61,352 bases of DNA from Nitrospirota bacterium (GTDB lineage: Bacteria; Nitrospirota; UBA9217), in the NCBI GenBank assembly GCA_035516965.1, contig DATIZR010000065.1, forward strand, positions 1 to 61,352. The letters run 5' to 3'. Below are positions 2,235 through 53,817 of this stretch, in pieces. Both the position numbers and the translations under genes were made by a program. The first letter of the stretch is position 1; each line of letters opens with the position of its first letter. A model generated the notes under the pieces. The model did no database searches. It saw nothing but the letters and a program-made list of their open reading frames with translations, and had not been told where the DNA came from.

Positions 2235-2250
2235 GAACAATTTCTTCATT
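2235..2250. repeat. Target-site duplication, right copy, containing the cheB stop codon
   Basis: This copy is identical to 809-824. The cheB TGA (2246-2248) lies within it, so the insertion occurred exactly at the gene end without changing the protein. Confidence 0.9.
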
Positions 2251-3334
2251 CGGCACGGTGATTCGTGCTCTTTCCCGTCCTGCAGCGCGCCAGGATCTCC
2301 CCTGCCATCGCACCAAGCGGCAGCACCTTGTCAACGGACCCCGTGCGGATGGCCTCCTGAGGCATGCCGAAGATGACGGCACTCTCCTCGCTCTCGGCCA
2401 GGCACTGCCCCTGCCGCCGTTTGATCGCCCGGACGCCTTCTGCGCCGTCTCTGCCCATTCCTGTCAGCACGACGCCCAGCGCGGCAGCTCCGCAGGCCTC
2501 GGCCACCGAGGTCATCAGCTGGTCAGCGGACGGCACGTATTTGTCGGAGGGTCCGCGGGAAACCAGATCGGTGAACAATCCGGTCCGGTCCCGTTTCAGC
2601 ACAAGGTGGTACCCTCCGGGCGCGATGAAAACCAGTCCCGGGCGGACCCGGTCGCCGGGGCCGGCCTCGGATATGACCAGGGACGAGAGCTTGTTCAGTC
2701 GTTCAGCGAAGCTCTTGGTGAACCCGGCCGGCATATGCTGCGCGACGACAATGGCGGCTCCGAAATCGGGCGGCAGGGCGGTCACAATGGCCTGCACCGC
2801 GGGCGGGCCTCCGGTCGAAGATGCCACGGCAACGACCTCGACGTTGCTCTTCTCGAACCGGACGTCGTCCTCCTTACGGGGGGGCGGGGCCGCCTTCTCG
2901 GCGGCAAGCAGCCCGATCGCGGATTGGACCTTCGCCATTTCGAGGTGTAGCACGGCCTGGACCTTGGCGACCAGCTCCTCGCGGACACCCTCGATGCTCC
3001 TCGAAATGCGCGCCTCGGGCTTCGCCAAAAAGTCAACGGCCCCGAGCTCCAGGGCGCGAAAGACGCTGCGGCTGTCCGAGCGCGACGAGATCACCAACAC
3101 CGGCGTCGGCCGCTCCCTCATGAGCCAGCGCAGGAAGGTGAACCCGTCCATGTTCGGCATTTCCAGGTCGAGCGTGATCACGTCGGGGGCAAGGCGCAGC
3201 GTCTTTGCAACGGCGTCAACGCCGTCATGCGCCGTGCCGACCACCTCGATCCCCGCGTCAGAGGCCAGCATGTGGGAGATGGTGGTCCGGTTATAGGCCG
3301 AATCATCAACAACGAGGGCCTTGATCGTCTTCAT
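2246..3334 (-). CDS. cheB: CheB, chemoreceptor glutamate methylesterase / response regulator
   Basis: The 362-residue protein has an N-terminal receiver domain (acid pocket D10-D11, phospho-acceptor D56, K105) and a C-terminal methylesterase domain with the triad Ser173 (in SSTGG), His200 (in AQHMPAG) and Asp296 (in GMGRDG). It removes methyl groups and deamidates glutamines on chemoreceptors when phosphorylated by CheA. It is the last gene of the chemosensory cluster, 118 bp after cheR. The insertion sequence lies at its 3' end but leaves the reading frame intact because the target duplication carries the stop. Length and motifs are normal for the family. Confidence 0.96.
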   Translation of the reverse strand: MKTIKALVVDDSAYNRTTISHMLASDAGIEVVGTAHDGVDAVAKTLRLAPDVITLDLEMPNMDGFTFLRWLMRERPTPVLVISSRSDSRSVFRALELGAVDFLAKPEARISRSIEGVREELVAKVQAVLHLEMAKVQSAIGLLAAEKAAPPPRKEDDVRFEKSNVEVVAVASSTGGPPAVQAIVTALPPDFGAAIVVAQHMPAGFTKSFAERLNKLSSLVISEAGPGDRVRPGLVFIAPGGYHLVLKRDRTGLFTDLVSRGPSDKYVPSADQLMTSVAEACGAAALGVVLTGMGRDGAEGVRAIKRRQGQCLAESEESAVIFGMPQEAIRTGSVDKVLPLGAMAGEILARCRTGKSTNHRAE

Positions 3335-3452
3335 ATCTCGTCCTGTCCCGCGGTCCCGCGTCTTTTCTCAATGTTGCGGCCGCGATGACGTTTGTCGGCT
3401 TCCCGTTCACACCCGGTGCTTGCAATGCGGGCTTTGCTCATCGGCCTTCCGC

Positions 3453-4310
3453 TCACTTCCCCCTGACAGGCTTCTGGTACACCATGTCGTATTTGAGCGT
3501 GCGCAGCAGGAAGGCGTTCGAAATGTTGATCAGGGACTCCGAGTGCCCGAGCAGCAGGTAGCCGCCTTCCCGGAGCTTGTCATAAAAACTGGCGATGACT
3601 TTTTTCTTCGCTTCCTTGTCGAAATAGATGATGACGTTCCTGCAGAATATGATGTCCATGTTGCTGATCAGGGCGGTCTTGTAGGGATCGAGCAGGTTCA
3701 GGTAGCTGAAGGACACCAGTTCCCGCACCCTGTCGATGATCCGGTAGTTGCCCTTCTCTTCTTCGATGAAATATTTCGCGAGCATCTCGGGGCTTGTGGC
3801 CCGGTAGGCACCCTTCTTGTACACGCCTTTTCTCGCCGTATGGAGAACCCGTTGATTGATATCGCTGCCGAGGATCTCCACCTGCCAGTCGCGCCACCAG
3901 GTTCCCGACTCGAGCAGCAGCATTGCGATCGTGTAGGGCTCCTCGCCGGTTGAACAGCCGGCGCTCCAGATCCGGAGCGTCCTGCGGGGCTCGAGGGTCT
4001 GCCGTAGTTCGGGCAGGATCTCCTCGGAAAAGGCCCGGAGCTGCGGGCTCTCCCGGAAGAAATAGGTCTCATTGGTCGTAAGGTTGTCGACGAGGACAGT
4101 CAGTTCCTCTTCACGCTTCCGGTCATAGCGGAGGAAATGGTAGTACTCTTCGAAGGTCTTGAGCTGGCGCTGCTCGAGCCGGCGCGACAGCCTCCGTTCG
4201 AGCAGGAACTTTGACCCGTCGTCGAAGTAGATACCGCAGTAGTCGTGGATGAAGTCCCGGAGGAGCCTGAAGACATCGTCAGGCAGGGGAATGATCTTCT
4301 CTTCAAACAT
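3453..4310 (-). CDS. cheR: CheR, SAM-dependent chemoreceptor methyltransferase
   Basis: The protein (285 residues) has the small helical N-terminal CheR domain followed by a Rossmann methyltransferase fold. The motif NETYFFR (80-86) and the SAM-binding GCSTGEEP (118-125) are intact, as is the late EVIIYFD-like strand (CRNVIIYFD). It methylates receptor glutamates, opposing CheB. There is no C-terminal TPR extension. Its start overlaps the end of the HEAT-repeat gene by 8 bp, which indicates translational coupling. Neither receptor in the cluster ends in a canonical CheR-docking pentapeptide, so tethering would have to be done differently. Confidence 0.95.
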   Translation of the reverse strand: MFEEKIIPLPDDVFRLLRDFIHDYCGIYFDDGSKFLLERRLSRRLEQRQLKTFEEYYHFLRYDRKREEELTVLVDNLTTNETYFFRESPQLRAFSEEILPELRQTLEPRRTLRIWSAGCSTGEEPYTIAMLLLESGTWWRDWQVEILGSDINQRVLHTARKGVYKKGAYRATSPEMLAKYFIEEEKGNYRIIDRVRELVSFSYLNLLDPYKTALISNMDIIFCRNVIIYFDKEAKKKVIASFYDKLREGGYLLLGHSESLINISNAFLLRTLKYDMVYQKPVRGK

Positions 4311-6300
4311 GATTCTTGAGCGCGTCCTTGGCAGTCTCCCGCACCGTGCCGTCAGGGTCCTCGTCGGCGATGCGCTCCAGCAGCGGCGCCGCAGCGGCGT
4401 CCCCTTTCTGGCCCAGGACCTCGATCGCCGTCTTCCGCACGCTCCAATGCTGGTCCGAAAGCTGAGCGATGACGGATTGTCGGACCAGGCCCCAGGGATA
4501 ACCGGCGAGCGCGCCGATGACCGTCTTGCGCACTTCGGGATCGGTATGGTCGGCGAGCTTCAGGAGCCGTTCGAGCGCGGCGGGAGGCCTGAGTTGTCCC
4601 AGGACCTCAACGATGGCGAGGAGAAAAATGTCAGCGGCCTGGGAAAGATGTCCGGCAAGCGCGTTGCCGATCCGGTCGCCGCCGATCTTGCCCAGACCCC
4701 GCGCCGCCGCTGCCCTGACCCAGAGGTCGGGGTCCTGGAGGAGGGACAGAAGCGTATCAGCCGCCTCCGGCCGGCCGGTGCCCCCCAGCGCGTCGGCAGC
4801 CAGCATGCGCACTTCCGGGTCGTCGTCGGTGACCGCCAGCATGAGTGACCGGTACGAGCGTTCGCCCGTCAGGGTTCCCAGCGAGTGTACCACTGCCTTG
4901 CGGACGGCCGGCTCCTCGTCCTTGAGCGCGAAGGCCATCGCCTCGATCGCCCGGTCGCTCGAGAACTTTCCCATGAGCAGCACAATGTTCCTGCGAAGAG
5001 CGGGGTCCCGGGAGGTAAAGTCCTTCAGAAGGCCGTCAAGCACCGACTCCTCGCCGATCTCCGCCAGCGCGATGATCGCCGACTCCTGGACGCTTTCATA
5101 TTCGTCGGTCAGCAGTTCCAGAAGCTGACCGATGGCGGTCCGGCTGTGCAGATGGCCCAGCGCCTCGGCGGCGGTGCTCCGGACATGTCCGTTTTCGTCC
5201 TGCAGCAGCTCAATGAGCTGTTCCTCTGCTTCGGCGCGCCCCTTGCTGCCCAGAACGCGGGCCACGGTCCGTCTGACGAGCGCGTTGTCATCGCGCAGGT
5301 ACTCCAGCAGAAAGCCGGTCGCGTCCGCTTCGAGGGTAACCAGCGCGCGCACCATCGGTTCTTCCATATCCTCTTCTCTGAGGAGCGCCAGCAGTTTCCT
5401 GATCGAGCTTTCCCTGCCTGCCCAACCGAGGGCTGCGATGGCCGCCTGCTGCAGTTCACCGGTGCTCGTGATCAGCATTTCCTCGAGAAAGTTCACGATC
5501 CGGTCGTTCGCGCCGCTCCTCACGGCTGCAACGATCCGGCCCCGGTCCGCCTCCGTGCTCTTCCGGTGGATCGCGATGAGCGCCGTGAGTGAAACTTCGC
5601 GCACGATCCTGAGGGGGTCGGCGATTCCGGCCAGGAGCGGCGCAAGCGTGTCCACGTTCCCGATCCTGCCGAGGGACTCCAGAACGGGCTCCCGTAGACT
5701 GCTCCGGCCGAGCGCCGCAATGAGCGGTCCGAGCGCCCGGTCGTCGCCGATCTCGCCCAGCGCCTCGGCCGCCGCATAATCGAGCCAGCCCTGATCGTAC
5801 CGCGAAAGACAGGCAAGCAGGGGGTCCACGGCCCTGCGGTCCCTGATCTTGCCCAGCGCCTCGGCGGACGCGACCCGGATATTCTCGTCGGGGTCAGACA
5901 GCCTCTCGATCAGCGCCGGCACGCTCCGCACGTCCCGGATGTCGCCGAGCACATCGACAATGAACTTCGTGACGTCGGGATCGGGGTCCGGCAGCGATGC
6001 GAGGAGGGGGCCGACCGACGCTGCGCCGATCTCGACGAGCGCTTCGATCGCCGAGTTCCTGGCCCCGGCATTGTCATGGGCCGCAAGGGCGTGCACGAGA
6101 CCCGCTACCACGTCGCTATCGGCAAGACCGACCAGCGCCTCGACAACGGTCTTCCGCACCCGCCAGTCGCTGTCGCCGATGACGCGAAACAGGTAGGGCA
6201 CGGCTTCGCGTCCGTATCGCCCGAGATCGACCGCGGCCTCCCGCCGTTCTTCGGCGTCCGTGCTCTGCAGTTTTCCACCCAGCCCTTCCAGATCAGCCAT
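4303..6300 (-). CDS. HEAT-repeat (PBS lyase-type) scaffold protein of the chemosensory cluster
   Basis: The 665-residue protein is made almost wholly of about 30-residue helical HEAT repeats from residue 5 to the end, with the recurring pattern DPD..VR..A..ALG.I and loop variants such as ENIRVASAEALGKI. No catalytic motif or signal peptide is visible, so it is a soluble protein-protein scaffold. Its ends overlap cheW (8 bp) upstream and cheR (8 bp) downstream, so the three are translated as a block, suggesting stoichiometric interaction with the signalling or adaptation enzymes. HEAT proteins are known in some delta-proteobacterial che clusters, but their function is unclear; a role in adaptation or array assembly is inference. 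Confidence 0.85.
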   Translation of the reverse strand: MADLEGLGGKLQSTDAEERREAAVDLGRYGREAVPYLFRVIGDSDWRVRKTVVEALVGLADSDVVAGLVHALAAHDNAGARNSAIEALVEIGAASVGPLLASLPDPDPDVTKFIVDVLGDIRDVRSVPALIERLSDPDENIRVASAEALGKIRDRRAVDPLLACLSRYDQGWLDYAAAEALGEIGDDRALGPLIAALGRSSLREPVLESLGRIGNVDTLAPLLAGIADPLRIVREVSLTALIAIHRKSTEADRGRIVAAVRSGANDRIVNFLEEMLITSTGELQQAAIAALGWAGRESSIRKLLALLREEDMEEPMVRALVTLEADATGFLLEYLRDDNALVRRTVARVLGSKGRAEAEEQLIELLQDENGHVRSTAAEALGHLHSRTAIGQLLELLTDEYESVQESAIIALAEIGEESVLDGLLKDFTSRDPALRRNIVLLMGKFSSDRAIEAMAFALKDEEPAVRKAVVHSLGTLTGERSYRSLMLAVTDDDPEVRMLAADALGGTGRPEAADTLLSLLQDPDLWVRAAAARGLGKIGGDRIGNALAGHLSQAADIFLLAIVEVLGQLRPPAALERLLKLADHTDPEVRKTVIGALAGYPWGLVRQSVIAQLSDQHWSVRKTAIEVLGQKGDAAAAPLLERIADEDPDGTVRETAKDALKNHV

Positions 6301-6817
6301 TGCTTGCCTCCGCCAGCGCCCGCCGCTCCTGCTGGCTCAATATGCGGGTGATGTCGAGCACGATGATCAGGCGCTCGCCAACCTTTGCCATCGCCGCGAT
6401 GAAATCCGCGCTCCTTCCTTTGGCCGCATCGGGCGCCGCGGCCATGTCCTTTTTCGGTACGGAAATAACCTCGTCGACGTTGTCCACCACGAGCCCGAGC
6501 AGGCCCGCCGAGCGCCCCGGCGCCGGCAGTGCGCCCCGCGTTACGATCATCCGCATTTTCCGCATGTCGTTCTGTACGTCCTTCAGCTCGAACCGGTTCC
6601 GCAGGTCAACGATGGGGATGATCGCGCCGCGCAGGTTGATCACCCCTTCGACGAACGCCGGCATCTTGGGGAGGGGAGTGATCTTCAGCGGACGGATCAC
6701 CTCGGTGATCGCATTGATGTCGAGCCCGTACTCCTCGGCCCCGACCCGGAATGTCACGAGCAGGACGTTCTCCTCAGCAGCGGCCGGCGTCTGGCTCTTT
6801 TTGTTTTTTACGAACAC
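6293..6817 (-). CDS. cheW: CheW adaptor, first of two in the cluster
   Basis: The 174-residue product matches a single CheW/SH3-like domain, from VLLVTFRVGAEEYGLDI (about 19-35) through LRGAIIPIVDLR (about 68-79) to a late helix, with a short lysine-rich N-terminus. It links receptors to CheA in the cytoplasmic array. The last codons overlap the HEAT gene start by 8 bp. It is encoded 36 bp after the small membrane protein gene. A second, longer CheW-domain protein sits at 18111-18770, so the cluster has two adaptors. Confidence 0.93.
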   Translation of the reverse strand: MFVKNKKSQTPAAAEENVLLVTFRVGAEEYGLDINAITEVIRPLKITPLPKMPAFVEGVINLRGAIIPIVDLRNRFELKDVQNDMRKMRMIVTRGALPAPGRSAGLLGLVVDNVDEVISVPKKDMAAAPDAAKGRSADFIAAMAKVGERLIIVLDITRILSQQERRALAEASNG

Positions 6818-6853
6818 GGCGCCTCCCCATTCCCCCCTGCCGGCAGGCAGCGG

Positions 6854-7159
6854 TCATACCTTGAATTTATCGATCTCCCGCGTGACGGCTTCGGCCACGA
6901 GTGCGTCCAGCGCGACCATGTCCTTGCCCGTGATGGGATCGGTCCCGGCCCTGCCGAGGAAGAGGCCCCGTTCGCGGCCGCGAGTTTCGATGGCGCGGTA
7001 CTGGCCGTAGATCAGAACGGGAGCCTCGAAGATCGTGCCGAGAACCATAAGCGCGGAGATGATGCCGGCGAACGCCACCGCGATCTGAAGGCCTCTGCTG
7101 GCTTCGATCTGCTTCCTCAGCGTAATCGTCCGTATGAGTTCCTTCGCACGAACCGGCAT
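6854..7159 (-). CDS. Small single-span membrane protein of unknown function
   Basis: The 101-residue product has a basic N-terminus, one hydrophobic segment (about residues 26-49, from LQIAVAFAGIIS to EAPVLIY) and a hydrophilic C-terminal part. I do not recognise a family. It lies 47 bp after a chemoreceptor gene and 36 bp before cheW and so is very probably translated with them. A partner or localisation factor for the receptor array is one possibility; this rests on position only. Confidence 0.6.
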   Translation of the reverse strand: MPVRAKELIRTITLRKQIEASRGLQIAVAFAGIISALMVLGTIFEAPVLIYGQYRAIETRGRERGLFLGRAGTDPITGKDMVALDALVAEAVTREIDKFKV

Positions 7160-7206: not shown

Positions 7207-9231
7207 TTACGCCTGCCGGGAAGGCCGGGCAGCCGATGTTCTCACCGTCATGGTGATCAGTTCCTGGCTCAGAAGCCGTGTCTGCTCCTCAAGGCTCCCG
7301 ATCGAAGCCTCCAGCTCTTCCATCCGCTTCATGGTCTTCCGGGGTAGATCCTGAACGCGCAGCATCGCGTCCAGGATCTGGCTGCCGAACTGGCCCTGCT
7401 CGTAGGAGCTCGCTGCAATCGTGCCGGCGCCCGCGGTCACGTTCTCGGCGGCCTCGGCGATCCGCTTGCCCCCCCGCTCCTGTTCGACCATCGCCGTATT
7501 CACGCGGCGTGCGATTTCCCGCATGCCTTCCGAAGCGTTCAGGATCATCTCGGTGCTCTTGCTCTGCGCCTGCGTGGCCGATGAGATCTGGCCCATCATC
7601 TGTTTGACATTGGCTATGGCGTCGCTCACCTGTTTGATCCCGCGCGACTGTTCCGCCGTGGCCCGTTCGATCATATTCGCTGTTTCCGCGGACTGGCCTG
7701 CGCTGGACAGGATTTTGTTGAGCGCGCCGCCGGCGGCATCGGACCGGCTTACACCCTCGTCGACGGCGGCCAGGCTCTCGTTCATGGCCTCGACGGCCTC
7801 CCGGGTCTCTTGCTGGACCGACGCGATGAGCTTCGCGATGTCCTGGGCCGATCCCGCGGTGCGGTCCGCGAGCGCCTTGATCTCCCCGGCTACGACCGCG
7901 AACCCCCTGCCCTGCTCGCCGGCCTGCGCTGCCAGGATCGAGGCGTTCAGCGCCAGCAGGTTGGTCCGCTCCGTCACGTCCACGATCACACCCAGGACCT
8001 TCCCGATCTCTTCGGAGCGGCTGCCCAGGTGGGTGATCAGGCCGGCGTACTTGGCCATGGACTCCTTGATGCGGCTCATGGCCCCGGTGATCTCATGGAT
8101 GGAATGGACACCGATGTCGTGCGCTTCGGACGACACCTGCTGGGAAAGGCGGGCCGACTCTCTCGCCGCCTGCTCGACTTCGCGGACCGTTGCTTCGATC
8201 TGGATCGACGACGCGGACGTCTCTTCGGCCGCCGAGGATACCGATTCGATGTGCTCGGCAACCTCGCGGAGAGACGCATTCATGGTCGTGACCGACGTGG
8301 TGACGCCTTCCGCGGCCGAGGCAAGCTCACCGGTGTGACGCGTCACCTCCAGGTTCGACGCGTTCATCTCGAGGATCGACGATGAGGTCTCTTCGGCGGA
8401 CGTCGACAGGGTCCCCGCGCTCTCCGCCACGGCCTGGACCGATGCCGACATCTTCCCGACAGAGGCCACGACGCTCGCGATCGTCGCTGCTTCGGCCGCG
8501 GCGTCCTGCCGGATATCCCTCGTTGCCTGCGCAATGCGCGGGCTGAGCTCGCTGATCCGGGATGCAATGGCGCTCATGTCGATCACGATCTCTTCGAGGC
8601 GTTCGATGAGGTAATTCACCCCGGCGGCAAGGGCGCCGATCTCGTCATCCCTGCTGGCATCGACGCGCCGCGTGAAATCCTTCCGGTCGATCACGTCCTT
8701 GAGCGCGGCCCCCAGTTCCTGGATCGGACCGGTGATGCTGCGGGAAACGGAGAGGTACAGGATGACCGCCAGAATGAGGAAGATGAAGAGGTGTTCGATA
8801 AGCGCGCTCGCCGCGTAGGCCCTGAGCCGGCCGGCCAGGTCCGCTGGATAGACGGCGATCCGCAGTTCGCCTATCCTCGACTGGCTCACCTCGATCGGAA
8901 AGGGGCCGAGGGCGATGCGTTCCCCGGCGGGGTCGGGCCGGATTGCGCGCACGATCTCATTGCCTTTGACGTCGAGCATCACGACCTCCTGCCCGTCGGA
9001 GGTGCGCAGGAAGTTCTGCGCCATGTAGTTGAGGGCAGTGAGATCCGAGGTCATCAGAAGCGGAGCCGCAAGCTCGGCCATGAGCTTGCCGGTCTGCTCG
9101 CCGTTCTGCTGTGTACTGCTGAGGATAGCCCGCTTTTCCATGACAGAGCGGTAGCCGATGATCAGGCTCATGGTGACGAACAGGCCGGAGAATATGAGGA
9201 AGATGAGCCGCTGGCGGACACCGAGTCGCAC
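7207..9231 (-). CDS. Methyl-accepting chemotaxis protein, cluster receptor 2
   Basis: The 674-residue receptor has TM1 (about 10-27), a periplasmic sensor of about 110 residues, TM2 (about 141-160), HAMP (about 163-215) and a long cytoplasmic coiled-coil hairpin. The tip (about 415-455) carries [20 protein letters not shown], i.e. ILAAQAGE in place of the usual IEAARAGE. The first receptor of this cluster shares the same substitution. No CheR-docking pentapeptide is present at the C-terminus. The gene follows the other receptor with a 137-bp gap. The ligand cannot be predicted from the sensor domain. Confidence 0.93.
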
Positions 9232-9368: not shown

Positions 9369-11462
9369 TCACAGGCGGAAGCTTTCGAGTTCGCTGTGCA
9401 GGACGTCGGCCCGGGCCTTGAGAGCCTGGACCGCCATGTCCATCTCGATGGAAACATCCACGGTCTCCTGGGTGATCTTCTGGATCCTCCCGACCGCGTC
9501 GCTGATGTTCTTTGCGCCAACGTTCTGGTCGGAGGTGGCCCGCGCGATCTGGGCCGCCTGCTGCTTCACCGAATCGACAGCCGCTGCGATCTGCTTGCCC
9601 CCCGTGGTCTGCTCCTGCGTCGCGGTCTTCACCTGGCGGGTGATGTCGCGCATCTTGTCGGCCGCGCGGGCGATGCGTTCGCTCCCCCGCTGCTGTTCCT
9701 GCATGGCGCTGGCGATGTGTTCGATCTGGCTCGCGATGTTGACGGAATTCTCGGTGATCTGGGCCACGCCGCGGGCCTGCTCCGCCGTCGCCCGCTCGAT
9801 GGCCCGCGCCATTTCGGCGGACTGTTTCGAACTCTCGGCAACCTGCTCCAGCACGTTGCTCGTCACATTCACCAGAGAAGCGCCGGCCTCCACGGCCTGG
9901 ATCCCCCGCGCCATCGCCTGCACGCTCTGCTCTGTCTCCTCCCGAACTGCCATGATCAGACCGGTGATCTCCTGCGTAGAAGCTGCCGTCCGCTCCGCGA
10001 GGTCCTTGATCTCGTCGGCGACGACGGCAAACCCTTTCCCGTGCTCACCTGCCTGCGCCGCCAGGATCGCCGCGTTCAGGGCCAGGAGGCTGGTCTGGTC
10101 GGTCACTTCATCGATGACCTTCAGGATCTGGCCGATCTCCTGGGAGCGTTTGCCGAGCCGGTTGACGACATCTGCCGTGGCTTCCACCTCCGCCCTGATG
10201 TTCTGCATGCCCTTGATGGCTTCGCGGATCGCGGTCATCCCTCGCTCCGACGCTTCACGGGACACGCGCTCCGCGAGGCGGGCGGACTCGAGTGCCCGCT
10301 GCTCGACCTCCTTGACGTTCGAGCTCATTTCCGTGACGGACGACGACGTCTGTTCGGCAGAGGTCGAGAGCTGCTCCGTATTTTCCGATACCTGCCTGAT
10401 CGACGCGAGCATCTCCTCGATGGACGAGGCCGTGTCTTCGGCGGCCGCCGTGAGCGATACGGCGCTCTGCGCGACCTCCTCGATGGACAACGCCATCTCC
10501 GTGGCAGACGACGATGCGTTCGTCGAGGCCTGCGACATCTCTTCCGCGTTCTCGGCCACGCTCCTGATCGACGCCGACATCTCGCTCACGGTGCTTGCGC
10601 TCTGCTCCGTCGCCTCCTGCTGCACCCGCGCGCCCTCGCTCATCTTGACCGTCGCGCTGCTCATGAGCGCCGTTGCCTCGCCGAGGCTGGCCGCGGTCTG
10701 CTTGATCTTCCCGAGCATCTGCCGGAGGTTTGCCGACATCGTGTTGATGGCGATGCCCAGGGTCGCGATCTCCGTCTCTCCCCGGACATCGATCTCCCGC
10801 GAGAGGTTACCGGCCGCCATGCTGCTCGCGATGGTCACCTGCTCGCCAATCGGCTTCGTGATCACCCGGTCGACGAAAAGATAGACCAGGACCGTTGCGG
10901 CGGCGAAGCTGACGAACGCAACCATGAGCGCCCACAGGAGGAGGCTCCCGATCTGCTTGTTCACGGCGCTCTCCTTGAGCGCGATCCGGAACACGCCGAG
11001 CTGCTTGTTGTCAACGCTCATGATCGGGATCACCTTCTCATACTGGCCGCCCTTGTCCGTGGAATAGGAATGCACCAGGGGGCTCCGGGCGCCCAGCGCC
11101 GTCTTGCTCGCCGCATCGGTCAGCACCGAATTCTCCAGGGCCCGGTCGCTTGCGTAGAGCACGCGGCCATCCATGTCCATGATCATGGCGAGGGAGAGGT
11201 CCTTGTCTTCATCGCTCAGCGCGCGAAGCTTGTCACCCATGCCTTCCAGCGCATTCAGGGGAAGGCCGAATCCGACGGCCTTGACGATGTCCTTCCTGAC
11301 GCCATCGGCCGTCGCCGCTGTCCGGGCGATCAGGGCTTCCCGGTACCGGCTGGTCGTGACAGAGATGTTCACGATCGCGTTGAACGCCAGCACGAGCAGG
11401 AGAATGCAGGCCGTCGCGAAGACGGCCCGTGCTTTCAGGTTCATGCGGGACAGGAGTTTCAT
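9369..11462 (-). CDS. Methyl-accepting chemotaxis protein, cluster receptor 1, coupled to a binding protein
   Basis: The 697-residue receptor has TM1 (about 12-34), a periplasmic domain resembling a single Cache fold (about 35-170), TM2 (about 175-198), HAMP and a long helical signalling domain. Its tip (near residue 459) reads [20 protein letters not shown], again the ILAAQAGE variant. There is no CheR-docking pentapeptide. The ATG overlaps the stop of the upstream periplasmic binding-protein gene by 4 bp. No ABC permease or ATPase is nearby, so the binding protein is likely to present its ligand to this receptor. That pairing is inference from overlap and topology. Confidence 0.94.
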
Positions 11463-15344: not shown

Positions 15345-18005
15345 TTAGGGCCGTTCCGCGGAAATGCCGATCACGCCGTTTGGCAGAAGATAGGTCATCG
15401 CCCCGTCACACCAGGCCGGCCGCCCGGGTCCGGGTGCGCAGATCGCCGTGAGCGTGGCGCCGGCGGAATAGTTCAGGACGCCGTCATCCAGCCAGTCGAT
15501 CGAGTCATAAATGAGCCGCTTCGCATAGTACCGGTTATGCACGAAAGCGCCGGGCTCTTCCGTGCTGCTGAACACCACCAGGTTGACGGCTGCGCCCATG
15601 GTGTTCTTGCCCGTCGTGTTGCCGGTGATATCGGTGTCTCCCCTGAAGAGCCAGTTATTATTGGCGCTGCTCCTGATGATGGTGAAAGCCCCGGTGGCGC
15701 TTGCGCCGGTGTACACAGATGACAGCGTCAGCGTCGTCGCATCCCGGTTGTTGATCTTGTACCACGTCCCATCGCTGTCAAGGCGGAAATAGTCGCCCGT
15801 CGTGCCCGAACCAGGCAATCCCACATCGAGGGTGAGAGGATTGGCTCCGGTTATCGTGACCGTCGCGCTGGCCGAAGTTACCGATGCCGTGGCGTTGTTC
15901 TGCAGCGAGAAGCCAGACGTGGTCGTTGACGCGCCGAGATAGTTCGTCGTCAAGGTAATCTGGGTATCGGAGTCAACGGAAGCGATGGAATACCAGACGC
16001 CGTTCTTGTCTACCCGGAACTTGTCTCCTGTTGCTATCAGGCTCGTCCAATTCGTATTGGTTCCGGTGACGATCGGCGAGCTGTATGTAACCGATACCGT
16101 TTCGTTCCTGCGGATGGTATAACTGACCCCGCTCGCCGAAGTAAAGGTCGCGCCGGTATAGGGCGTGGAGAGCGTGATCTGGGTCGCAAGGTCCACGGAG
16201 GCAATGGGGTACCATGCCCCGTCACTGTCAATGCGGAACTGATCGCCCGGATCGAGTGAAAGCGCAGTCCAGTTCGTCTTTATGCCGGTTATGACCGCGC
16301 TTCCGGTCACTGCGGTCACGGTTCCCGCCGTAATCAAGGACAGGTTCCTGGCGCGGTAAAAAGTGTTGCTGCCCGTTCTTTGGTAGAATCCGGCCTGATC
16401 CAGCACTTTCTGAAGGGCGCTCTGCGCGTTGGCGAACAAGTTCTTTTCGTTATTGATCATGGCAACAAAGGAAGAGTCGTTCAGGCCGTGGCATTTTGAG
16501 CAGACCTCGCTCGGAATGCTCGTGATGCTGCCCGTGATGCTCGAGATGACTGTTTGGTTGTCGTCGAACGCGGCCGGAAAGAACAGATGATCGCCGACGC
16601 CGTTCGGGCGGGACATATGACAGCCGACGCAGGGACCGTTCGTTCCCGTGTCCGGGGCGCCGGCCGTGCCGATTTTGTCGTGCAGGTATCTGGCGATATT
16701 CGTGTAATCCCTGCCGCTGTAGTTGTATCCCGCGGTCCGGAACATGACGGCGCCGACCATGAAGTGGTGGCCGTCGATGATCGTCCGGTTCGTGAAATCC
16801 ACGGGGACCACCGCCCCGACGTTCATGTTCTTGATCGAATCTCCGTTCTGCCTGCCGGTATGGCAGGGCATGCAGATATTCGAGCCTGCCAGGTCCGGAT
16901 AGGCAAAGGAAGCCACCGAGCTGATCGTGGCGACCGCCGGGGGGGTCACATAAAAGCTGTAGCTGTAATCCGCGGTATACGGGCCGGGATTGCGCAGGGC
17001 GCCCTTGTTGTCCGAGTGGCAGCCCGTGCATTCGAGCAGCTCGGGTTTCCAGCTCGCGGCCGAGGGCACCGGGAAGGTGGCAAGGGTCCCGTACAGGATG
17101 GCCTTGGCCTGAACGGCATTGCCGCTTGCCAGAGCGTCGGCATATTGTGCATACCCGGTCGTCGTATGACACCGCTGACACGTCGGGCTTCTGGACCAGT
17201 TGGTTCTCGACCACGCCTCGCTCGGCGCCCGCGAAGCGTGCGCCGACTCCGCCCACTCGTTACTGATAGCGATATCGCTGTTCTTGTGAGGGTTGTGACA
17301 GTCGGTACAGACCGTCTCGCGCGAAAAGTCCATGGCGTAACCCGTCGGGGTTATGGAACCAAAGCTCGTGAGAGCGGTGGCGAAGTGGGTATCGGTGATG
17401 ATCAGATTGTTACCGCTGGCACTCGCCGCCTCTGCTCCTCCCGCGTCATGCGCCGCGACTACGGTCCCCGTGCCCGTTGAATTCAGCAGTTCATGGCAGT
17501 ACGTGCACATGACGAACTGACCGGACAGGGTAACGGTCGGACCGCTGCCAAGGACGGTACCGGTTGTGTTCGAAAGGAGCGATATGGGCTGCACGCCGCC
17601 CGCGTTCGCGTGCAGACTGCCGGGGCCGTGGCAGGCTTCGCAGCCAACGACCGGACGGGCCGTCGTCCCCAGAGAGCCTGCGAGCGCCACACGCGCGCTG
17701 TCCCCGTTCGGGTTATGGCAGTTCTTGGTGCAGGTGCCTATCTGGCCGAGCGTCGGACTTCCCGGGCTGCCCAGGTCTCCCGCCGGGTTCAGGTTCGCGT
17801 GCGTCGTGGAGAGCCAATCCGCTGCCGTGTCCGTGTGGCAGCCCGCGCAGACGTCGATGCCCGCGGTCGGCGTCGATGCCGAGAGCACCGTTCCCGATGC
17901 CGGCGGCCTGTTCTCCGTGCTGGATCCGCACCCGTTGAGCGCTGCGGCAACCAGCATCGCGCCCAGCAGAGCGAACGCCATTCTGCTTCCTCTTTTCTGC
18001 TTCAT
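15345..18005 (-). CDS. Decahaem outer-membrane lipoprotein cytochrome with C-terminal beta-repeats
   Basis: The ATG at 18005 is preceded by GGGGGAGG and a lipobox (LNGC, Cys26), so it is chosen over an upstream in-frame start. The 886-residue protein has nine CXXCH sites (about 53, 122, 167, 233, 276, 326, 378, 459, 502) plus one CX3CH (CTKNCH, 92-97). Behind the haem region, about residues 563-778 contain three homologous units of about 70 residues with the pattern TNWT..L..GD.FR.D.DG.WY.I.SVD..TQITL. The protein is the probable cell-surface terminal reductase, as MtrC/OmcB in known conduits. It is encoded 30 bp before the MtrA-like gene. The repeats could serve adhesion or matrix binding. 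Confidence 0.87.
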   Translation of the reverse strand: MKQKRGSRMAFALLGAMLVAAALNGCGSSTENRPPASGTVLSASTPTAGIDVCAGCHTDTAADWLSTTHANLNPAGDLGSPGSPTLGQIGTCTKNCHNPNGDSARVALAGSLGTTARPVVGCEACHGPGSLHANAGGVQPISLLSNTTGTVLGSGPTVTLSGQFVMCTYCHELLNSTGTGTVVAAHDAGGAEAASASGNNLIITDTHFATALTSFGSITPTGYAMDFSRETVCTDCHNPHKNSDIAISNEWAESAHASRAPSEAWSRTNWSRSPTCQRCHTTTGYAQYADALASGNAVQAKAILYGTLATFPVPSAASWKPELLECTGCHSDNKGALRNPGPYTADYSYSFYVTPPAVATISSVASFAYPDLAGSNICMPCHTGRQNGDSIKNMNVGAVVPVDFTNRTIIDGHHFMVGAVMFRTAGYNYSGRDYTNIARYLHDKIGTAGAPDTGTNGPCVGCHMSRPNGVGDHLFFPAAFDDNQTVISSITGSITSIPSEVCSKCHGLNDSSFVAMINNEKNLFANAQSALQKVLDQAGFYQRTGSNTFYRARNLSLITAGTVTAVTGSAVITGIKTNWTALSLDPGDQFRIDSDGAWYPIASVDLATQITLSTPYTGATFTSASGVSYTIRRNETVSVTYSSPIVTGTNTNWTSLIATGDKFRVDKNGVWYSIASVDSDTQITLTTNYLGASTTTSGFSLQNNATASVTSASATVTITGANPLTLDVGLPGSGTTGDYFRLDSDGTWYKINNRDATTLTLSSVYTGASATGAFTIIRSSANNNWLFRGDTDITGNTTGKNTMGAAVNLVVFSSTEEPGAFVHNRYYAKRLIYDSIDWLDDGVLNYSAGATLTAICAPGPGRPAWCDGAMTYLLPNGVIGISAERP

Positions 18006-18110: not shown

Positions 18111-18770
18111 TCATGTCCCCAATGCCCGCTCCACATCGAGCAGGATATACAGCTTGTCGTCCTTCCGCGCGATACCCTTCAGGTATTCCGCACCGTGCTC
18201 AATCGTTTCCGGTACCGGCCGTATGGCCTCGGGATGGATCTTGACGACTCCCGACACGCGGTCGACAATGAGCCCCGCGTCCTCATCGGTCACGCTCACG
18301 ACCAGGATACGCGACTTCTCGTCCCGTGCGGACGCAGGGAGACCGAGACGCTTTGAAAGGGCGATCACCGGAAGGACGGCGCCGCGCAGTGCGGTCACGC
18401 CCAGGACATAGTTGGGGGCGTTCGGCACGGGCGTCAGGTCCCTGCTCTTCAGCACTTCCTTCACGTCGTCGACCATGACCGCATAGTGTTCGTCGCCGAG
18501 ACGGAACGAGAGCATCTCGAGCTCCTGTTCCTGTTGCTCCTCAGCGACCGGTTCTGGCGGTGGACCGGCTTCGGCCTCTTCGCCCGCAGGAGAAGTGTCC
18601 TCGGGAACGGCCGCCGCAGGTAACGCTTCGACGGCCTGTTCGGGCTGCCCATGCTGCGACAGATCCTCATTGACCCCCGGCGCAGCAGGTGCGGTCTCCG
18701 CCGCCTGCTCCTTGACGGTACTTGCGCGGGCACGTTCCGCCGCTTTTTTCCGGGCTGCCAAAATGTCCAT
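18111..18770 (-). CDS. cheW: CheW-domain protein with Pro/Glu/Ala-rich N-terminal extension
   Basis: The 219-residue product has a basic N-terminus (MDILAARKKAAERARA), a low-complexity acidic and proline-rich linker (about 18-85) and a C-terminal CheW domain (about 86-219: EMLSFRLGDEHYAVMVDDVK, LRGAVLPVIALSKRLGL). The extension is absent from the shorter CheW at 6293-6817, so the two adaptors are not redundant copies. It sits between the ExeA-type ATPase gene and the electron-conduit genes. It probably links CheA to the cluster receptors; the long linker may reach a second partner. Confidence 0.9.
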   Translation of the reverse strand: MDILAARKKAAERARASTVKEQAAETAPAAPGVNEDLSQHGQPEQAVEALPAAAVPEDTSPAGEEAEAGPPPEPVAEEQQEQELEMLSFRLGDEHYAVMVDDVKEVLKSRDLTPVPNAPNYVLGVTALRGAVLPVIALSKRLGLPASARDEKSRILVVSVTDEDAGLIVDRVSGVVKIHPEAIRPVPETIEHGAEYLKGIARKDDKLYILLDVERALGT

Positions 18771-18780
18771 ACGTCGCTAA

Positions 18781-18892
18781 CGCTCCACTGAAAATTCCAA
18801 AGTGCAAATTTAAAATTGCAATTGATCTTCCCTTTGACTTCCTGTTCCCCTGCGCAATTTACAATTTGCGCTTTGCCTTTCGAGATCCCGGT
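18781..18892. repeat. AT-rich intergenic repeat-like spacer inside the che cluster
   Basis: The 112-bp spacer is strikingly AT-rich relative to its neighbours and contains two related inverted motifs, AAATTTAAAATTGCAATT and GCGCAATTTACAATTTGCGC. It encodes nothing I can support. It resembles the short dispersed AT-rich repeats seen between genes in many environmental genomes. Confidence 0.4.
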
Positions 18893-19687
18893 TCATTGAT
18901 CTCTTACGACGCTCTCGATGATCTCGGGGCCGATGATTTCGACGCCTCTGCCGAACCCTTCGAGCAGGGCATTCCCGGCGATGATATTGATGCGCCTCGG
19001 CACTCCGCCGCTCTCGCGGAACAGGAGTTCGAGCGCTCCCTCATCGAAGAGCCTGGCCTCCCTGCCCGCGACCCTGAGCCGGTGCGCTACGTACTCCCGC
19101 GTTTCCTGTGCTTCCAGCGGCCCCAGATGGAACTGCATGGCGACCCGCTGGCGGAGCGCCCGGTACGGACGACGATCGAGCCGGTCCCTCAGCTCGGTCT
19201 GGCCGATCAGGACAAGCGCCAGGAGGTTCCGGTCATCGAGCTGGAAGTTCGTGAGCAGCCGCAACTCCTCGAAGGTGGCCTTGCCGGGGATGAGCTGCGC
19301 TTCGTCGATAATGAGGACGGTCCGCTTCCCGGCCTCGAAGAGCTCGAACAGTTTTGCGTTGATCGCCTCAAGGAGGCCGTGACGCTGCCGGCCGGCATCC
19401 TCGATCCCCAGCCGCAGGGCGACCATCTGCAGGAGCTGGGACGGCGAAAGCCGCGGGTTGATGATGAGGACCGGATGGTAGCTCCGGTCCATCCAGTCGA
19501 TCAGAGCCCGGGACAGGGTCGTCTTGCCCGATCCGATCTCGCCGGTCAGGAGCACGATGTCCTGCTCGTCCACGGCGAGTTGCATCCTGGCCAACGCTTC
19601 GGCGTGCTTGGCGCCTTGAAAAAGGAAGCGCGGGTCCGGCGTCTTGTTGAAGGGCTTTTCCTTTAAGCCGTAGAATTCCTCGTACAT
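18893..19687 (-). CDS. ExeA/GspA-type AAA ATPase
   Basis: The product (264 residues) starts with the YEEFYGLKEKPFNKTPDP signature typical of the ExeA/MshM group, followed by Walker A GEIGSGKTT (49-57) and Walker B VLIIDEAQ (124-131). It then has the sensor and lid region (RRINIIAGNALL). ExeA assembles secretins through peptidoglycan, and relatives act in type IV pilus or secretion gene sets. The peptidoglycan-binding C-terminal domain of ExeA is missing, so only the ATPase module is here. Its location between cheA and cheW is unusual and suggests a role in positioning or assembling an envelope complex, perhaps the electron conduit. That function is inference. Confidence 0.88.
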   Translation of the reverse strand: MYEEFYGLKEKPFNKTPDPRFLFQGAKHAEALARMQLAVDEQDIVLLTGEIGSGKTTLSRALIDWMDRSYHPVLIINPRLSPSQLLQMVALRLGIEDAGRQRHGLLEAINAKLFELFEAGKRTVLIIDEAQLIPGKATFEELRLLTNFQLDDRNLLALVLIGQTELRDRLDRRPYRALRQRVAMQFHLGPLEAQETREYVAHRLRVAGREARLFDEGALELLFRESGGVPRRINIIAGNALLEGFGRGVEIIGPEIIESVVRDQ

Positions 19688-19803
19688 ATCAGTCAGATGA
19701 CAGAGAGCAGAACACTGGCAACTGCGGGCCTGACCAATGCTTTCAGGCTGTCCGACGATTGACCGTCAGTCTTCTGACATCGGGATTTCGGTCTTTTCCT
19801 TTC

Positions 19804-21804
19804 CTATCTTATCGGCCCTGCCGAAGTTTTCTTTAGCACGCCCTCCATGAGGGACTCCACGTCCAGCACCAGCACGACACCGCGCCGGTCGCCCAATTCG
19901 GTTGCGCCGGCAATACCCCGCACCTTCGAAAGCCGTTTTCCCATGGGCTTGATAACGATTTCCTGCTGGTCCCGCAGCGCCTCCACCACGATGCCGAGCC
20001 GGCGCTCGGCGAGGCCCACGATGATAAGATACAGGGATGAACGCCCTTCCCGGACCGGCAGCATGAATGCCTCGGTGAGCCGCAGGAGCGGCACCGTTTC
20101 GTTGCGGATGGCGATGACCTCGCGTGTTTCAACGGTCTCCACCTGGTCCTCGGTGGTCCTGATGATCTCCAGGACGGAACTGAGCGGCACGGCAAACGTC
20201 TGTCCGCCGGCTTCCACGATAAGCGCCTTGATGATGGCGAGCGTGATCGGGAGTGTCATCGTGAACCGGCTGCCTTCGCCGATTTCCGTTTCGACGTCTA
20301 TCATGCCCGAAAGCTTCGAAAGGTTCTTCTTCACGACGTCCATGCCCACGCCGCGGCCCGAGATTTCCGTGACCGTTTCCCGGGTGGTGAATCCCGGCAG
20401 GAAGACGAGGTCCAGGATCTCCTTGCGGTCCGTTTCGGGATCGAGCCCGTGGTCGGGCGTCAGCACGCCCTTCTCGACGGCCTTCGCGAGGATCTTCCGC
20501 GGGTCCATCCCCGCGCCATCGTCCTCCACGGTGATGACAACATGGTTTCCCTTCGGAGAAGCGGACAGCACCACCACGCCCTGTTCGGGCTTCCCGCCCT
20601 GTCTGCGGACTTCCGGAGATTCGATGCCGTGGTCAACGGCGTTCCGGATCAGGTGCATCAGCGGGTCGGCGAGGTCCTCGACCATCAGCTTGTCGAGCTC
20701 GGTCTCCTCGCCGGACAGCCGGAGGTCGATCTCCTTGCCCGCGTCCTTCGCGTATTTCCTGACCATCTGCGTCAGGCGGTTGAAGATCTGCCCGATCGGC
20801 ACCATCCTGACCTCAAGGATGCCTTCCTGCAGTTCGTTCAGTTTGCGTTCGAGCCCCCGCTGCGCCTTGTGCAGGTCTGCGGCAAGGCTGCTGGCGCCCT
20901 GCTGGGACTTGAGCTCCCGCACGATGCGACCTATGATGTTCTTGACGAGGTGCATTTCGCCTACGGTGTTCATCAGGCTGTCGAGTTTGTAAATGTCGAC
21001 GCGGACCGTATTGCTGACGGACCGGAGCCCGGCTTCCTGCCGCGGTTCCTCGGCCTTCCGTCCCTCCACGTAGGGAACCTGCTCGATTGCCGCGTTGGGC
21101 ACGGTGACCGACGCCTTCAGTTCATCGCGCGACTTGGCCGTCCCGACCATGATCGTGAAGCCGATGCCGCTACCCCCGGCGCCCGCCGTGGGAAGCGTGC
21201 AGATGATCTCGGCTTCCTTCTTGAGCGTTTCGTTGAGCCCCGTGATGCCCGCTTCAAAATCGGCCAGCTCGAAGACGACCTTGACGAGAAACAGGTTCTT
21301 GCGTCCCCTGATATTCTCCTTCAGCCGGAATTCCTCGTACTCGGTCAGCACCTGGAGCAGCCCCCGGTCGAGATCGATCTCGTTCAGGACCGACCGGTCG
21401 GAAGCGGCCGCGGGCTTCGCCTGGAGGACCGCGTCGATCCGCTCGACCATGGGTGCGATCTCTTCCGGCTCCTGCCCGCTGCCCGCCTGCTGGACCAGGC
21501 GGCCGAGCAGCGCCGCCGCATCGAAGAGGACATCGAGCGCCTCGCGGCTCAACCCCACCTTGCCGAGCCGGACCTCATCGAGCAGGAACTCCATCTTGTG
21601 GGACAGGTCAGCCGGCACCTTGAGGTCGAACATGCCGGCAAGCCCCTTGAAAGAGTGGATGGCGCGGAACAGCGCGTTCACCTGCTCGGGCTCCGGACGC
21701 CCCTCGCTCTGCCCGGACTCGATCGTGAGCAGCGCTTGGCTGGCGCTCTCGAGGATGTCCTCGGCCTCGGCAAGAAAATCTTTTATGTTCCGGTCTGACT
21801 TCAT
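19804..21804 (-). CDS. cheA: CheA histidine kinase
   Basis: The 666-residue kinase has a P1/HPt domain with the phospho-acceptor His50 in AIHSFKGLAGMF, a linker with a P2-like region (about 160-235), the dimerisation helices (about 265-320), the HATPase domain (N-box HLIRNAVDHGIE 384-395, G1 DDGAGMD 428-434, G2 GRGVGMD 483-489) and a C-terminal CheW-like domain (about 527-666). All catalytic motifs are intact. It phosphorylates the CheY encoded just upstream and the CheB at the far end of the cluster. It is preceded by cheY with about 100 bp spacing. Confidence 0.97.
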   Translation of the reverse strand: MKSDRNIKDFLAEAEDILESASQALLTIESGQSEGRPEPEQVNALFRAIHSFKGLAGMFDLKVPADLSHKMEFLLDEVRLGKVGLSREALDVLFDAAALLGRLVQQAGSGQEPEEIAPMVERIDAVLQAKPAAASDRSVLNEIDLDRGLLQVLTEYEEFRLKENIRGRKNLFLVKVVFELADFEAGITGLNETLKKEAEIICTLPTAGAGGSGIGFTIMVGTAKSRDELKASVTVPNAAIEQVPYVEGRKAEEPRQEAGLRSVSNTVRVDIYKLDSLMNTVGEMHLVKNIIGRIVRELKSQQGASSLAADLHKAQRGLERKLNELQEGILEVRMVPIGQIFNRLTQMVRKYAKDAGKEIDLRLSGEETELDKLMVEDLADPLMHLIRNAVDHGIESPEVRRQGGKPEQGVVVLSASPKGNHVVITVEDDGAGMDPRKILAKAVEKGVLTPDHGLDPETDRKEILDLVFLPGFTTRETVTEISGRGVGMDVVKKNLSKLSGMIDVETEIGEGSRFTMTLPITLAIIKALIVEAGGQTFAVPLSSVLEIIRTTEDQVETVETREVIAIRNETVPLLRLTEAFMLPVREGRSSLYLIIVGLAERRLGIVVEALRDQQEIVIKPMGKRLSKVRGIAGATELGDRRGVVLVLDVESLMEGVLKKTSAGPIR

Positions 21805-21907
21805 GGGTCGGTTCGCTCCCTGGAGGATGGGAAAATTTCAAGTGGTCGCTTCCTGTTCTCCATGTTCAATCTTCGCTGGTTCATGCGTCGGGCCGCCCCG
21901 CCGCCTA

Positions 21908-22276
21908 TCAGCCGCCCAGCGCTCCCCTCACGGCCGACATCAGGTCTTCCTTGGTGAACGGCTTGATCACGTAGCTCGAGGCGCCGAGGGCGAGGCCCCG
22001 CTTCTTGTCCTCGTCGCTCTTTTCGGTGCTCACGATGATGAGCGGTATCTCCCGGTATGCCGGGTTGGACCTGACGAAACCGATGAGCTCCAGCCCGTTG
22101 ATATCGGGCATGTTGATGTCGGTCACGATGAGGTCGAACCGGCGGGAGGGAAGGGCCTTGAGCGCCTCGAAGCCGTTGGCGGCCTCCACGACGAAGAAAC
22201 CGCCTGCCTCCTCAAGGGAGACGCGCATCATCGAGCGGATCGCCTTGGAGTCCTCGACGATCAGAACGTTCCTCAT
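21908..22276 (-). CDS. cheY: CheY-type single-domain response regulator
   Basis: The 122-residue product is a stand-alone receiver domain with E8-D9, phospho-acceptor D53 (in VTDINMPD), T84 and K106 (KPF). Its start overlaps the stop of the PATAN/DUF4388 gene by 4 bp (ATGA). It is probably the output of the CheA encoded downstream. No flagellar switch genes are nearby, so the target may be pili, gene expression or another envelope machine. Confidence 0.94.
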   Translation of the reverse strand: MRNVLIVEDSKAIRSMMRVSLEEAGGFFVVEAANGFEALKALPSRRFDLIVTDINMPDINGLELIGFVRSNPAYREIPLIIVSTEKSDEDKKRGLALGASSYVIKPFTKEDLMSAVRGALGG

Positions 22277-23436
22277 CTTCTCTCCTTTTGAAGCTCGGCG
22301 ATCCGTTTTTCGAGCAGTGCTTTTTCGAGCGCCATGCCCGCCTGGTTCATGAAGATCTCGAGCGTATCGACGCCCTTGATCGGCCTTCGTTCCGGGATGT
22401 TGTCGCCGTAGACGACGAGGGCGACCTTTCCGTCCACGACGAGCGGGATGGCAAGCACCTGATCGGGCATCACACCGCCCAACTCGTTCACGAGGTACTT
22501 GTTGCTCTCATTCTGCTCGATCTGCCCCTGGTAGGTGCGGCGGTTTTCGATCACGGTAAGAAACAGGGAGGGCTGGTTCAGCGGGATCCTGATATTGCGG
22601 ACCACCTGGTCCGGAGACTGGCCCGTAAGCTCGATGCCGAACTGGCCGAGGCCTCGCACTTCGTCCTTCTTCACCATGAACAGGATCGCCCGGTTCACCA
22701 CTTCGCTCGCGTACCGAAGAATGAGGAGGGTCACCTCCGCCGTGGCCGTTGGGAACCGCAGCTCATCGAACATGGACTTGAGGGTGGAGATCTCTTTTTG
22801 CGGCGTTTCCGTCTCGATGCGGGCGCGGAACTCCTCCCTGGCAGGTTCATAGGAGAGAGGGGATGGTGTTAGGGGCGGGGGGGATGCGCCGTGCACCTTG
22901 GGCGGGGGCGCGGGCCGGGTCGTGCCCTTTCGCCTCTCGTCGAGTATCCGTGTGCCTTCCATCAGGAGGTACTCGGCGCTGATGCCGTGCTTCAGCAGGA
23001 ATTCCTGCGTATCGATCTCGATCTTGTCCTTCGGGGCTATCTCGCCGAGCTCAAAGTTGAAAAAACCTTCCTCCCAGGCAAGCAGGTCATAGATGATCTC
23101 CTCGATCTGCTTCCGCACAACGGCTTCGAGCGTCTGGGCGGTCACGGCCCCCATGTCCTGGAGGATCATGCCCAGGGGCTTGTCTGCCTCCCGCCGCTGC
23201 ACGGAGAGCGCCTGTGAGAGGGCGGTCTCGGAAAGCATGCCCTGGGAAACGAGCATATTGCCGAGAGAATCACGAATGCTGTCGCTCGCGGCCTGGATCA
23301 CCTGACCGTTCTTGAACACGACCATGCCGGTGCCCTTGCGGCTGCGCACGATGAGCGTGCCTGTTTTTTTACTCAGACTGATAATCTGGAAGATATCGGG
23401 TAGCGCAAGGTCTTCCAGCCTGCCCACAAGACTCAT
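22273..23436 (-). CDS. PATAN/DUF4388-domain protein heading the chemosensory cluster
   Basis: The 387-residue protein begins with a DUF4388 (PATAN) domain (about 1-150: GRLEDLALPDIFQIISLSKK, then FKNGQVIQAASDS). A proline-rich linker follows (about 170-205), then a GAF-like C-terminal domain (about 215-380, ending in a short coiled coil). PATAN domains occur in response regulators that control pilus-driven movement in cyanobacteria and occur often in delta-proteobacteria. The gene follows a good promoter by about 28 bp and overlaps cheY by 4 bp. It has a full-length relative in this window at 49632-51431, next to pilT. The C-terminal assignment is tentative. Confidence 0.8.
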   Translation of the reverse strand: MSLVGRLEDLALPDIFQIISLSKKTGTLIVRSRKGTGMVVFKNGQVIQAASDSIRDSLGNMLVSQGMLSETALSQALSVQRREADKPLGMILQDMGAVTAQTLEAVVRKQIEEIIYDLLAWEEGFFNFELGEIAPKDKIEIDTQEFLLKHGISAEYLLMEGTRILDERRKGTTRPAPPPKVHGASPPPLTPSPLSYEPAREEFRARIETETPQKEISTLKSMFDELRFPTATAEVTLLILRYASEVVNRAILFMVKKDEVRGLGQFGIELTGQSPDQVVRNIRIPLNQPSLFLTVIENRRTYQGQIEQNESNKYLVNELGGVMPDQVLAIPLVVDGKVALVVYGDNIPERRPIKGVDTLEIFMNQAGMALEKALLEKRIAELQKERR

Positions 23437-23464
23437 GAAATCTCCTGCTCCGAATTGTCATCCG

Positions 23465-23492
23465 ATTATATCAATTTGAATGAAAAAAGCAA
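23465..23492 (-). promoter_or_regulatory. Sigma-70 promoter of the chemosensory/electron-conduit cluster
   Basis: On the minus strand TTGCTT (23487-23492) and a perfect TATAAT (23465-23470) are separated by 16 bp, followed by a short leader and the ribosome-binding site GGAGCAGGAG of the DUF4388 gene. No other equally good promoter was found between here and cheB, although gaps of 100-140 bp (18006-18110, 9232-9368, 3335-3452) could hold internal ones. Confidence 0.65.
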
Positions 23493-53814: not shown

Positions 53815-53817
53815 CGC

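Follow-up and report, generated by a model that had tools for sequence, protein, structure and literature searches.

A contig of 61,352 nucleotides from a Nitrospirota bacterium (DATIZR010000065.1 of assembly GCA_035516965.1; GTDB lineage UBA9217), called the window here, carries a complete che operon of 16 genes on one strand (minus, 23436-2246) with the genes of an outer-membrane electron conduit inside it. The conduit, an MtrA-like decahaem cytochrome and an MtrB/PioB-family barrel preceded by a surface cytochrome, is followed by a periplasmic substrate-binding protein (SBP) and a methyl-accepting chemotaxis protein (MCP1, or receptor 1). This arrangement is real, conserved and specific, and MtrA, MtrB, SBP and a signal transducer form one unit in Nitrospirota and Desulfobacterota. 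From gene order, domain matches and the receptor tree, we lean somewhat beyond even towards a conduit-fed redox or contact receptor, in which MtrA, the barrel and the SBP would be the input end of receptor 1.

The unit was recognized outside che operons by a contig scan with the MtrA alignment, which gave 392 related stretches; the best 80 (Nitrospirota and Desulfobacterota) were fetched. All 79 readable MtrA sequences contain a CLxxCHxHD (CX3CH) first haem and nine further CxxCH. Where 6.5 kb or more of downstream sequence is available, MtrB is present in all loci (56 of 56), the SBP in 51 of 56, and the SBP together with a transducer in 47 of 56. Of the linked transducers, 28 are MCPs and 19 are haem-motif sensor kinases, never both in one locus, and 2 further loci have an MCP just upstream of the unit. 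In kinase-type loci, a PhnD-like SBP precedes the kinase, which contains a periplasmic CxxCHH (residue 88-89) and then HAMP-(PAS/GAF)-HisKA-HATPase; C89, C92, H93 and H94 are invariant in 20 of 20 aligned kinase sensors, and the helical model of this sensor domain has weak fold matches to NarQ and LytSN. By comparison, an SBP, MCP or haem kinase lies directly downstream in none of the 18 ordinary CX2CH MtrA loci of Nitrospirota (15 with at least 3 kb downstream), one of which (L238) has a plain kinase and a regulator. The difference in partner linkage between CX3CH and ordinary MtrA gives a Fisher p of about 7e-12, a value not corrected for kinship. Moreover, the MtrA tree calls for at least 2-3 changes of transducer type, with MtrA-MtrB-SBP retained throughout; this is the pattern expected if the unit supplies input and is not itself the target of regulation.

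The genes of the window operon, in the order of transcription, are as follows.

22273..23436, minus strand: DUF4388 protein with an MshE-type cyclic di-GMP (c-di-GMP)-binding motif and a weak GAF match; operon gene 1 (Pfam PF14332, 117 bits; NCBIfam NF053729, 43 bits, cut-off 38)
21908..22276, minus strand: CheY, receiver domain only (PF00072)
19804..21804, minus strand: CheA kinase with Hpt, dimer, ATPase and CheW domains (domain matches; orthologues in relatives)
18893..19687, minus strand: ExeA-like AAA ATPase (PF13401; TIGR03015, 244 bits, below cut-off)
18111..18770, minus strand: CheW 1 (PF01584)
15345..18005, minus strand: surface decahaem lipoprotein cytochrome, MtrC/MtrF-like domain II/IV (LNGC lipobox; 9 CxxCH and CTKNCH)
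14307..15314, minus strand: MtrA-like decahaem lipoprotein of the CX3CH subfamily (TIGR03508, 247 bits; sequence match to chain 6r2q_A)
12396..14291, minus strand: MtrB/PioB-family outer-membrane barrel, GSU2204-like (PF11854, over cut-off; NF041027, 112 bits)
11459..12385, minus strand: orphan ABC_sub_bind/TrpX-type periplasmic binding protein, the SBP (PF04392, 117 bits; PDB 3lkv, 6hni and 3lft by sequence)
9369..11462, minus strand: receptor 1 (MCP1), conduit-linked, with a single Cache sensor, HAMP and MCP signalling domain (domain matches, AlphaFold2, Foldseek, receptor tree)
7207..9231, minus strand: receptor 2 (MCP2), HAMP and MCP signalling domain (domain matches)
6854..7159, minus strand: small open reading frame (ORF), probable remnant of the N-terminal sensor region of a third receptor (38% identity over 82 aa to the second MCP of L057)
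6293..6817, minus strand: CheW 2 (PF01584)
4303..6300, minus strand: HEAT-repeat protein (PF13646)
3453..4310, minus strand: CheR methyltransferase (PF01739)
2246..3334, minus strand: CheB methylesterase (PF01339, PF00072)

A sequence-only reading of the contig had named these genes on one strand in this order, and the domain and family matches agree with it except for the gene at 6854-7159: taken there for a membrane protein, it is rather the probable receptor remnant listed above. The measured gaps also agree with the spacing given in that reading, namely 30, 15 and 10 bp along the conduit genes and an overlap of SBP and receptor 1, which amounts to 4 bp. CheW 1 and the surface cytochrome are 105 bp apart, MCP1 and MCP2 137 bp, and a simple pattern scan found no terminator-like sites on the coding strand in the operon gaps. 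The binding protein is indeed an orphan, TrpX-like and with no permease or ATPase adjoining. Because the GC content at third codon positions (GC3) is the same in the conduit genes and the che genes, the conduit is not a fresh insertion; equal GC3 together with the gene order kept in relatives rules out a chance insertion or recent transfer, as conservation in relatives rules out a chance arrangement. The operon is bounded past cheB by a transposase with an rve integrase core (878-2158, minus strand), which starts about 90 bp after the cheB end.

Each of the two cytochromes contains 9 CxxCH and 1 CX3CH. The MtrA-like protein passes the NCBIfam DmsE-family model TIGR03508 (247 bits, cut-off 192); its first haem motif is CLKACHEHD, followed by 9 CxxCH, and thus differs from the all-CX2CH pattern of the ordinary MtrA compared. 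The CX3CH first haem is taken here as the putative mark of an MtrA subfamily, and not as a ground for exclusion from the MtrA/DmsE family. The barrel, encoded 15 bp from the MtrA gene, passes Pfam MtrB_PioB PF11854 (25.7 bits, cut-off 23), and its 112 bits against the NCBIfam GSU2204 model NF041027 are under the cut-off. Seleno forms are mentioned in the family model, and a selenocysteine MtrB was rejected, as the MtrB reading frames are open. An antisense sigma-70-like promoter lies inside the barrel gene (13904-13933, plus strand), perfect at 12/12 with an 18-bp spacer. The haem-free C-terminal part of the surface cytochrome (residues about 605-740) contains at least 2 repeats of FRIDSDGxWYxIASVDxxTQITL, possibly substrate-binding.

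In order to follow the conduit in relatives, the MtrA family model was run on 99 of them and longer stretches were taken around the matches. G001 (Nitrospirae bacterium GWC2_57_9, same genus as the window genome), G003, G009 and G010 share the order DUF4388-CheY-CheA-ATPase-CheW-[cytochrome]-MtrA-MtrB-SBP-MCP, although the ORF filter used missed the SBP in G009 and the CheW in G010. The same order without the cytochrome is found in G002 and G004, and in a second Nitrospirota family, f4, in G016, G025 and G048, partly in G041, and in G033 with an additional receptor. In G007 and G012 a contig break falls between the operon halves and parts only are visible. The conduit thus lies within the che genes in most of the window's family and in a second Nitrospirota family, and the refuting condition set in the sequence-only reading, a lack of relatives with the conduit among their che genes, does not hold. 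Because the cytochrome is absent here in G002, G004 and f4, the surface cytochrome is optional and the core is MtrA-MtrB-SBP-MCP. The f4 MCP1 proteins (L047, L048, L050, L051; 965-968 aa) have a PhnD-like binding domain fused at the C-terminus (scanned in L048), which should be cytoplasmic, since each has two transmembrane segments only.

In one member of the window's family, G013, CheW is followed directly by MCP1, and conduit and SBP are gone; this MCP1 is 60% identical to that of the window in the sensor region and 75% in the signalling region. It looks like conduit loss, because conduit carriers surround G013 in the CheA tree. A single origin of the che-embedded state in the two families (f1, f4) is not rejected by the approximately unbiased (AU) test (p 0.26), and with the CheA tree unresolved we do not claim it.

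The sensor domain of MCP1 is modelled by AlphaFold2 as a single Cache domain (pLDDT, the predicted local distance difference test score, 86), and its best Foldseek folds are the sensor domains of WalK, DcuS and CitA. No CxxCH is found in MCP1 or MCP2, so neither has the periplasmic CxxCH of class 40H, and a haem receptor in the window operon was rejected. In the receptor tree, one clade (SH-like approximate likelihood ratio test, SH-aLRT, 100) unites the MCP1 of the window, the MCP1 of f4 and 20 receptors of conduit units that lie outside che operons, while the receptors in the same slot of conduit-less che operons fall outside it, except that of G013. The receptor is read as tracking the conduit, not the che operon, because this conduit-linked clade excludes the conduit-less slot-mates. 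For MCP2, the only relative among the receptors compared is a G013 receptor. A lone further MCP gene is present in the window (30182-31825, plus strand).

For the output, we searched the 11 conduit-che genomes for FlhA and PilT. FlhA exists in 1 of 11, the window's own genome (contig C93:114739-116676), and is absent from the ten others, while PilT exists in 11 of 11. Flagellar taxis as a general output was rejected on this basis, and taxis by flagella, suggested in the sequence-only reading, is unlikely for most carriers. Because FlhA is mostly absent, PilT is present in all and the DUF4388 protein has a c-di-GMP motif, the output is probably pili or biofilm, attachment or expression rather than flagellar taxis. 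Elsewhere in the window (49632-55179, plus strand), a second DUF4388 protein (599 aa), a PilT-family ATPase, a PhnD-like SBP and a HAMP-GGDEF diguanylate cyclase are encoded in a row, which is another SBP-transducer pair adjoining a pilus motor.

From the above, a mechanism can be proposed for the conduit-fed receptor, in which we infer the electron entry into the conduit, the SBP-receptor contact, the direction of signalling and the output. The barrel would hold the decahaem MtrA through the outer membrane, and the haem chain of MtrA would take the redox state of an outside partner (mineral, electrode, humic or other extracellular acceptor or donor), which the surface cytochrome, where present, would reach. 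The TrpX-type SBP would then relay, in the periplasm, either the charge state or a small molecule captured or converted at the conduit to the Cache domain of MCP1. MCP1 would set CheA activity via the two CheW proteins, with CheR and CheB for adaptation, and CheY and the DUF4388 protein would act on type IV pili, attachment or expression, most likely not on flagella. In the kinase-type relatives, direct electron hand-over to the c-haem of the kinase is possible. A broader claim, that the whole CX3CH MtrAB subfamily is a sensory organ and not primarily respiratory, its haem wire being read by a dedicated chemoreceptor or c-haem kinase in Nitrospirota and Desulfobacterota, is more tentative, and we would put it a little short of even.

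The earlier proposal that the array may sense the conduit or its substrates is strengthened in part, as the arrangement is kept in two families and the unit also occurs without che genes, and is weakened by G013. Several observations count against a conduit-fed receptor. G013 dropped conduit and SBP, yet retained MCP1. Since MCP1 has no haem motif, a direct hand-over like that possible for the kinases is excluded for it, and a ligand step between conduit and receptor is needed. The conduit may also respire, being the only strong MtrA/DmsE-type match of the family model in the window's genome. One signalling-type sCache_haem protein acts as a nitric oxide sensor, not a redox sensor (PMC12889525). 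Counting in favour, a CheA of the type found in the electrode-sensing network (Esn) of Geobacter is encoded elsewhere in 17 of the 20 genomes that have a conduit-linked MCP, of the window clade, outside che genes, compared with 118 of 396 in the phylum; counting against, it also occurs in 6 of 9 kinase-type Nitrospirota, so that the MCP type is not higher (p 0.34). A general rule that the MCP-type module needs an Esn CheA holds against the phylum, fails against kinase-type Nitrospirota and is confounded by kinship, and was given up. In L109, L112, L113 and L130, a 13-haem cytochrome gene lies between the SBP and an MCP of an unrelated clade, and Esn-type CheA is absent from these genomes.

The alternative that deserves most attention, although we consider it rather unlikely, is substrate sensing beside substrate use: the SBP would present a soluble compound (amino acid-like, flavin, quinone or metal chelate) to receptor 1, while the conduit would respire that substrate or a related one in the ordinary way, being merely co-expressed, and the array would steer to the substrate with the conduit unread. 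The overlapping SBP and receptor genes and the sCache fold of MCP1 fit a classical ligand receptor, PhnD-type SBPs accompany kinases as AioX does AioS, and the single strong MtrA-type match of the genome and the surface cytochrome of the window would suit respiration. However, no transporter is encoded next to the SBP, c-haem motifs occur in the kinases of the unit, MtrAB is not optional as the surface cytochrome is, and the ordinary MtrAB loci of the phylum lack these partners.

It is improbable that the conduit is the target, with the kinase or receptor sensing the acceptor and driving conduit expression or assembly. The one-operon layout and a sigma-54 response regulator next in line in one kinase-type locus (L081) agree with this, but over half of the transducers in the unit are chemoreceptors, which on their own exert no control over transcription, and most kinase-type loci have no regulator beside the kinase. 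That the conduit entered the che operon by accident and is simply carried along is very improbable. Two separate che-embedded lineages (f1 and f4, with the AU result above on a single origin) and one loss (G013) could be read in its favour; it is strongly disfavoured by the unit counts over 56 loci and by the conduit-specific receptor clade, besides the order kept over two families and the occurrence of the unit, transducer included, away from che operons.

As regards the recognition of solid acceptors by bacteria that use metals or electrodes, mutants of Shewanella show a need for both Mtr proteins and a Cache receptor, and Geobacter has a che system that senses electrodes. A conserved genetic unit with a dedicated receptor clade singles out the proteins that merit testing, and might supply a component for reporting the extracellular redox state to a cell. 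The arrangement suggests that cells can sense the redox state of surfaces via the kind of protein with which others respire minerals, and a conduit serving as a sensor would, if true, be categorically new. To our knowledge, there is no known physical link between such a wire and a receptor. No description of a conduit and a receptor or kinase in one operon was found in the literature searched, which did not cover subscription papers; as far as could be checked, the parts are known and their union as a conduit-receptor unit is undescribed.

Among known systems, the closest to the che part is Esn of Geobacter. In G. sulfurreducens, GSU2220 (CheW), GSU2221 (ATPase) and GSU2222 (CheA) belong to the electrode-sensing network and are required on electrodes (PMC5585712). 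The window operon has the Esn-type order DUF4388-CheY-CheA-ATPase-CheW ... CheW-HEAT-CheR-CheB: CheW-ATPase-CheA stand in the same order, CheY, DUF4388, CheW2, HEAT, CheR and CheB also occur in the Geobacter-like L207 and L208, and the ExeA-like ATPase sits where the "ATPase" GSU2221 sits in the Geobacter block (PMC5585712). In contrast, EsnA is a GAF receptor without a periplasmic domain, encoded elsewhere, and the Esn operon contains no conduit. The window CheA is 45-46% identical to those of L207/L208, and in the CheA tree the Nitrospirota and the Desulfobacterota fall into separate groups. Conduit-less versions of this che operon are widespread, occurring in the Nitrospirota families f35, f29, f3, f30, f41, f21, f5 and f37 and in Desulfobacterota, including Geobacter-like genomes, which were recognised by a neighbouring 27-haem cytochrome after the operon that we take to be GSU2210. 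The receptor slot of conduit-less operons often contains an MCP of 948-960 aa with a periplasmic c-haem motif, and the one scanned (L174) matches Mcp40H-20_sensor; the c-haem receptors GSU0582/GSU0935 of G. sulfurreducens were studied or proposed as redox sensors (PMC8396549). Relatives of the window MtrA and barrel in Geobacter, OmcK (GSU2203) and GSU2204, rise on hematite and magnetite (PMC4070692). In L227 (Geobacter-like G466), the 27-haem cytochrome lies downstream of an Esn-like operon, and an OmcK-like CX2CH MtrA, accompanied by a 665-aa protein with one CxxCH, is found about 7-10 kb on, on the opposite strand, which gives this che system a distinct cytochrome neighbourhood.

Congregation of Shewanella on minerals requires mtrBC/omcA, a Cache MCP (SO_2240) and a CheA (PMC5789149). 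This precedent counts in favour of the conduit-fed receptor, as do the electrode-sensing block of G. sulfurreducens and the c-haem receptors in the slot of conduit-less operons. This congregation and energy taxis share an Mtr conduit, a Cache-domain MCP and CheA with the window, whereas the genes there are unlinked and the link is read as proton motive force or energy taxis; here they form one conserved unit, and the carriers mostly lack FlhA. Like MtrCAB/PioAB, the window has a decahaem MtrA homologue, an adjoining MtrB/PioB barrel and a decahaem MtrC-like surface lipoprotein. Unlike them, its conduit has a CX3CH first haem, a lipoprotein MtrA, fixed partners (SBP plus MCP or haem kinase) and a dispensable surface cytochrome, and is placed in a che operon. 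The kinase-type loci resemble AioXSR, TorTSR and XylFII-LytS in a PhnD-like SBP beside a transmembrane kinase, once with a sigma-54 regulator; this AioXSR-like set (PhnD-type SBP, kinase and sigma-54 regulator) is found in L081 and not in the window operon. What the kinase-type unit adds to these systems is a full MtrAB, a second SBP and a periplasmic c-haem motif in the kinase.

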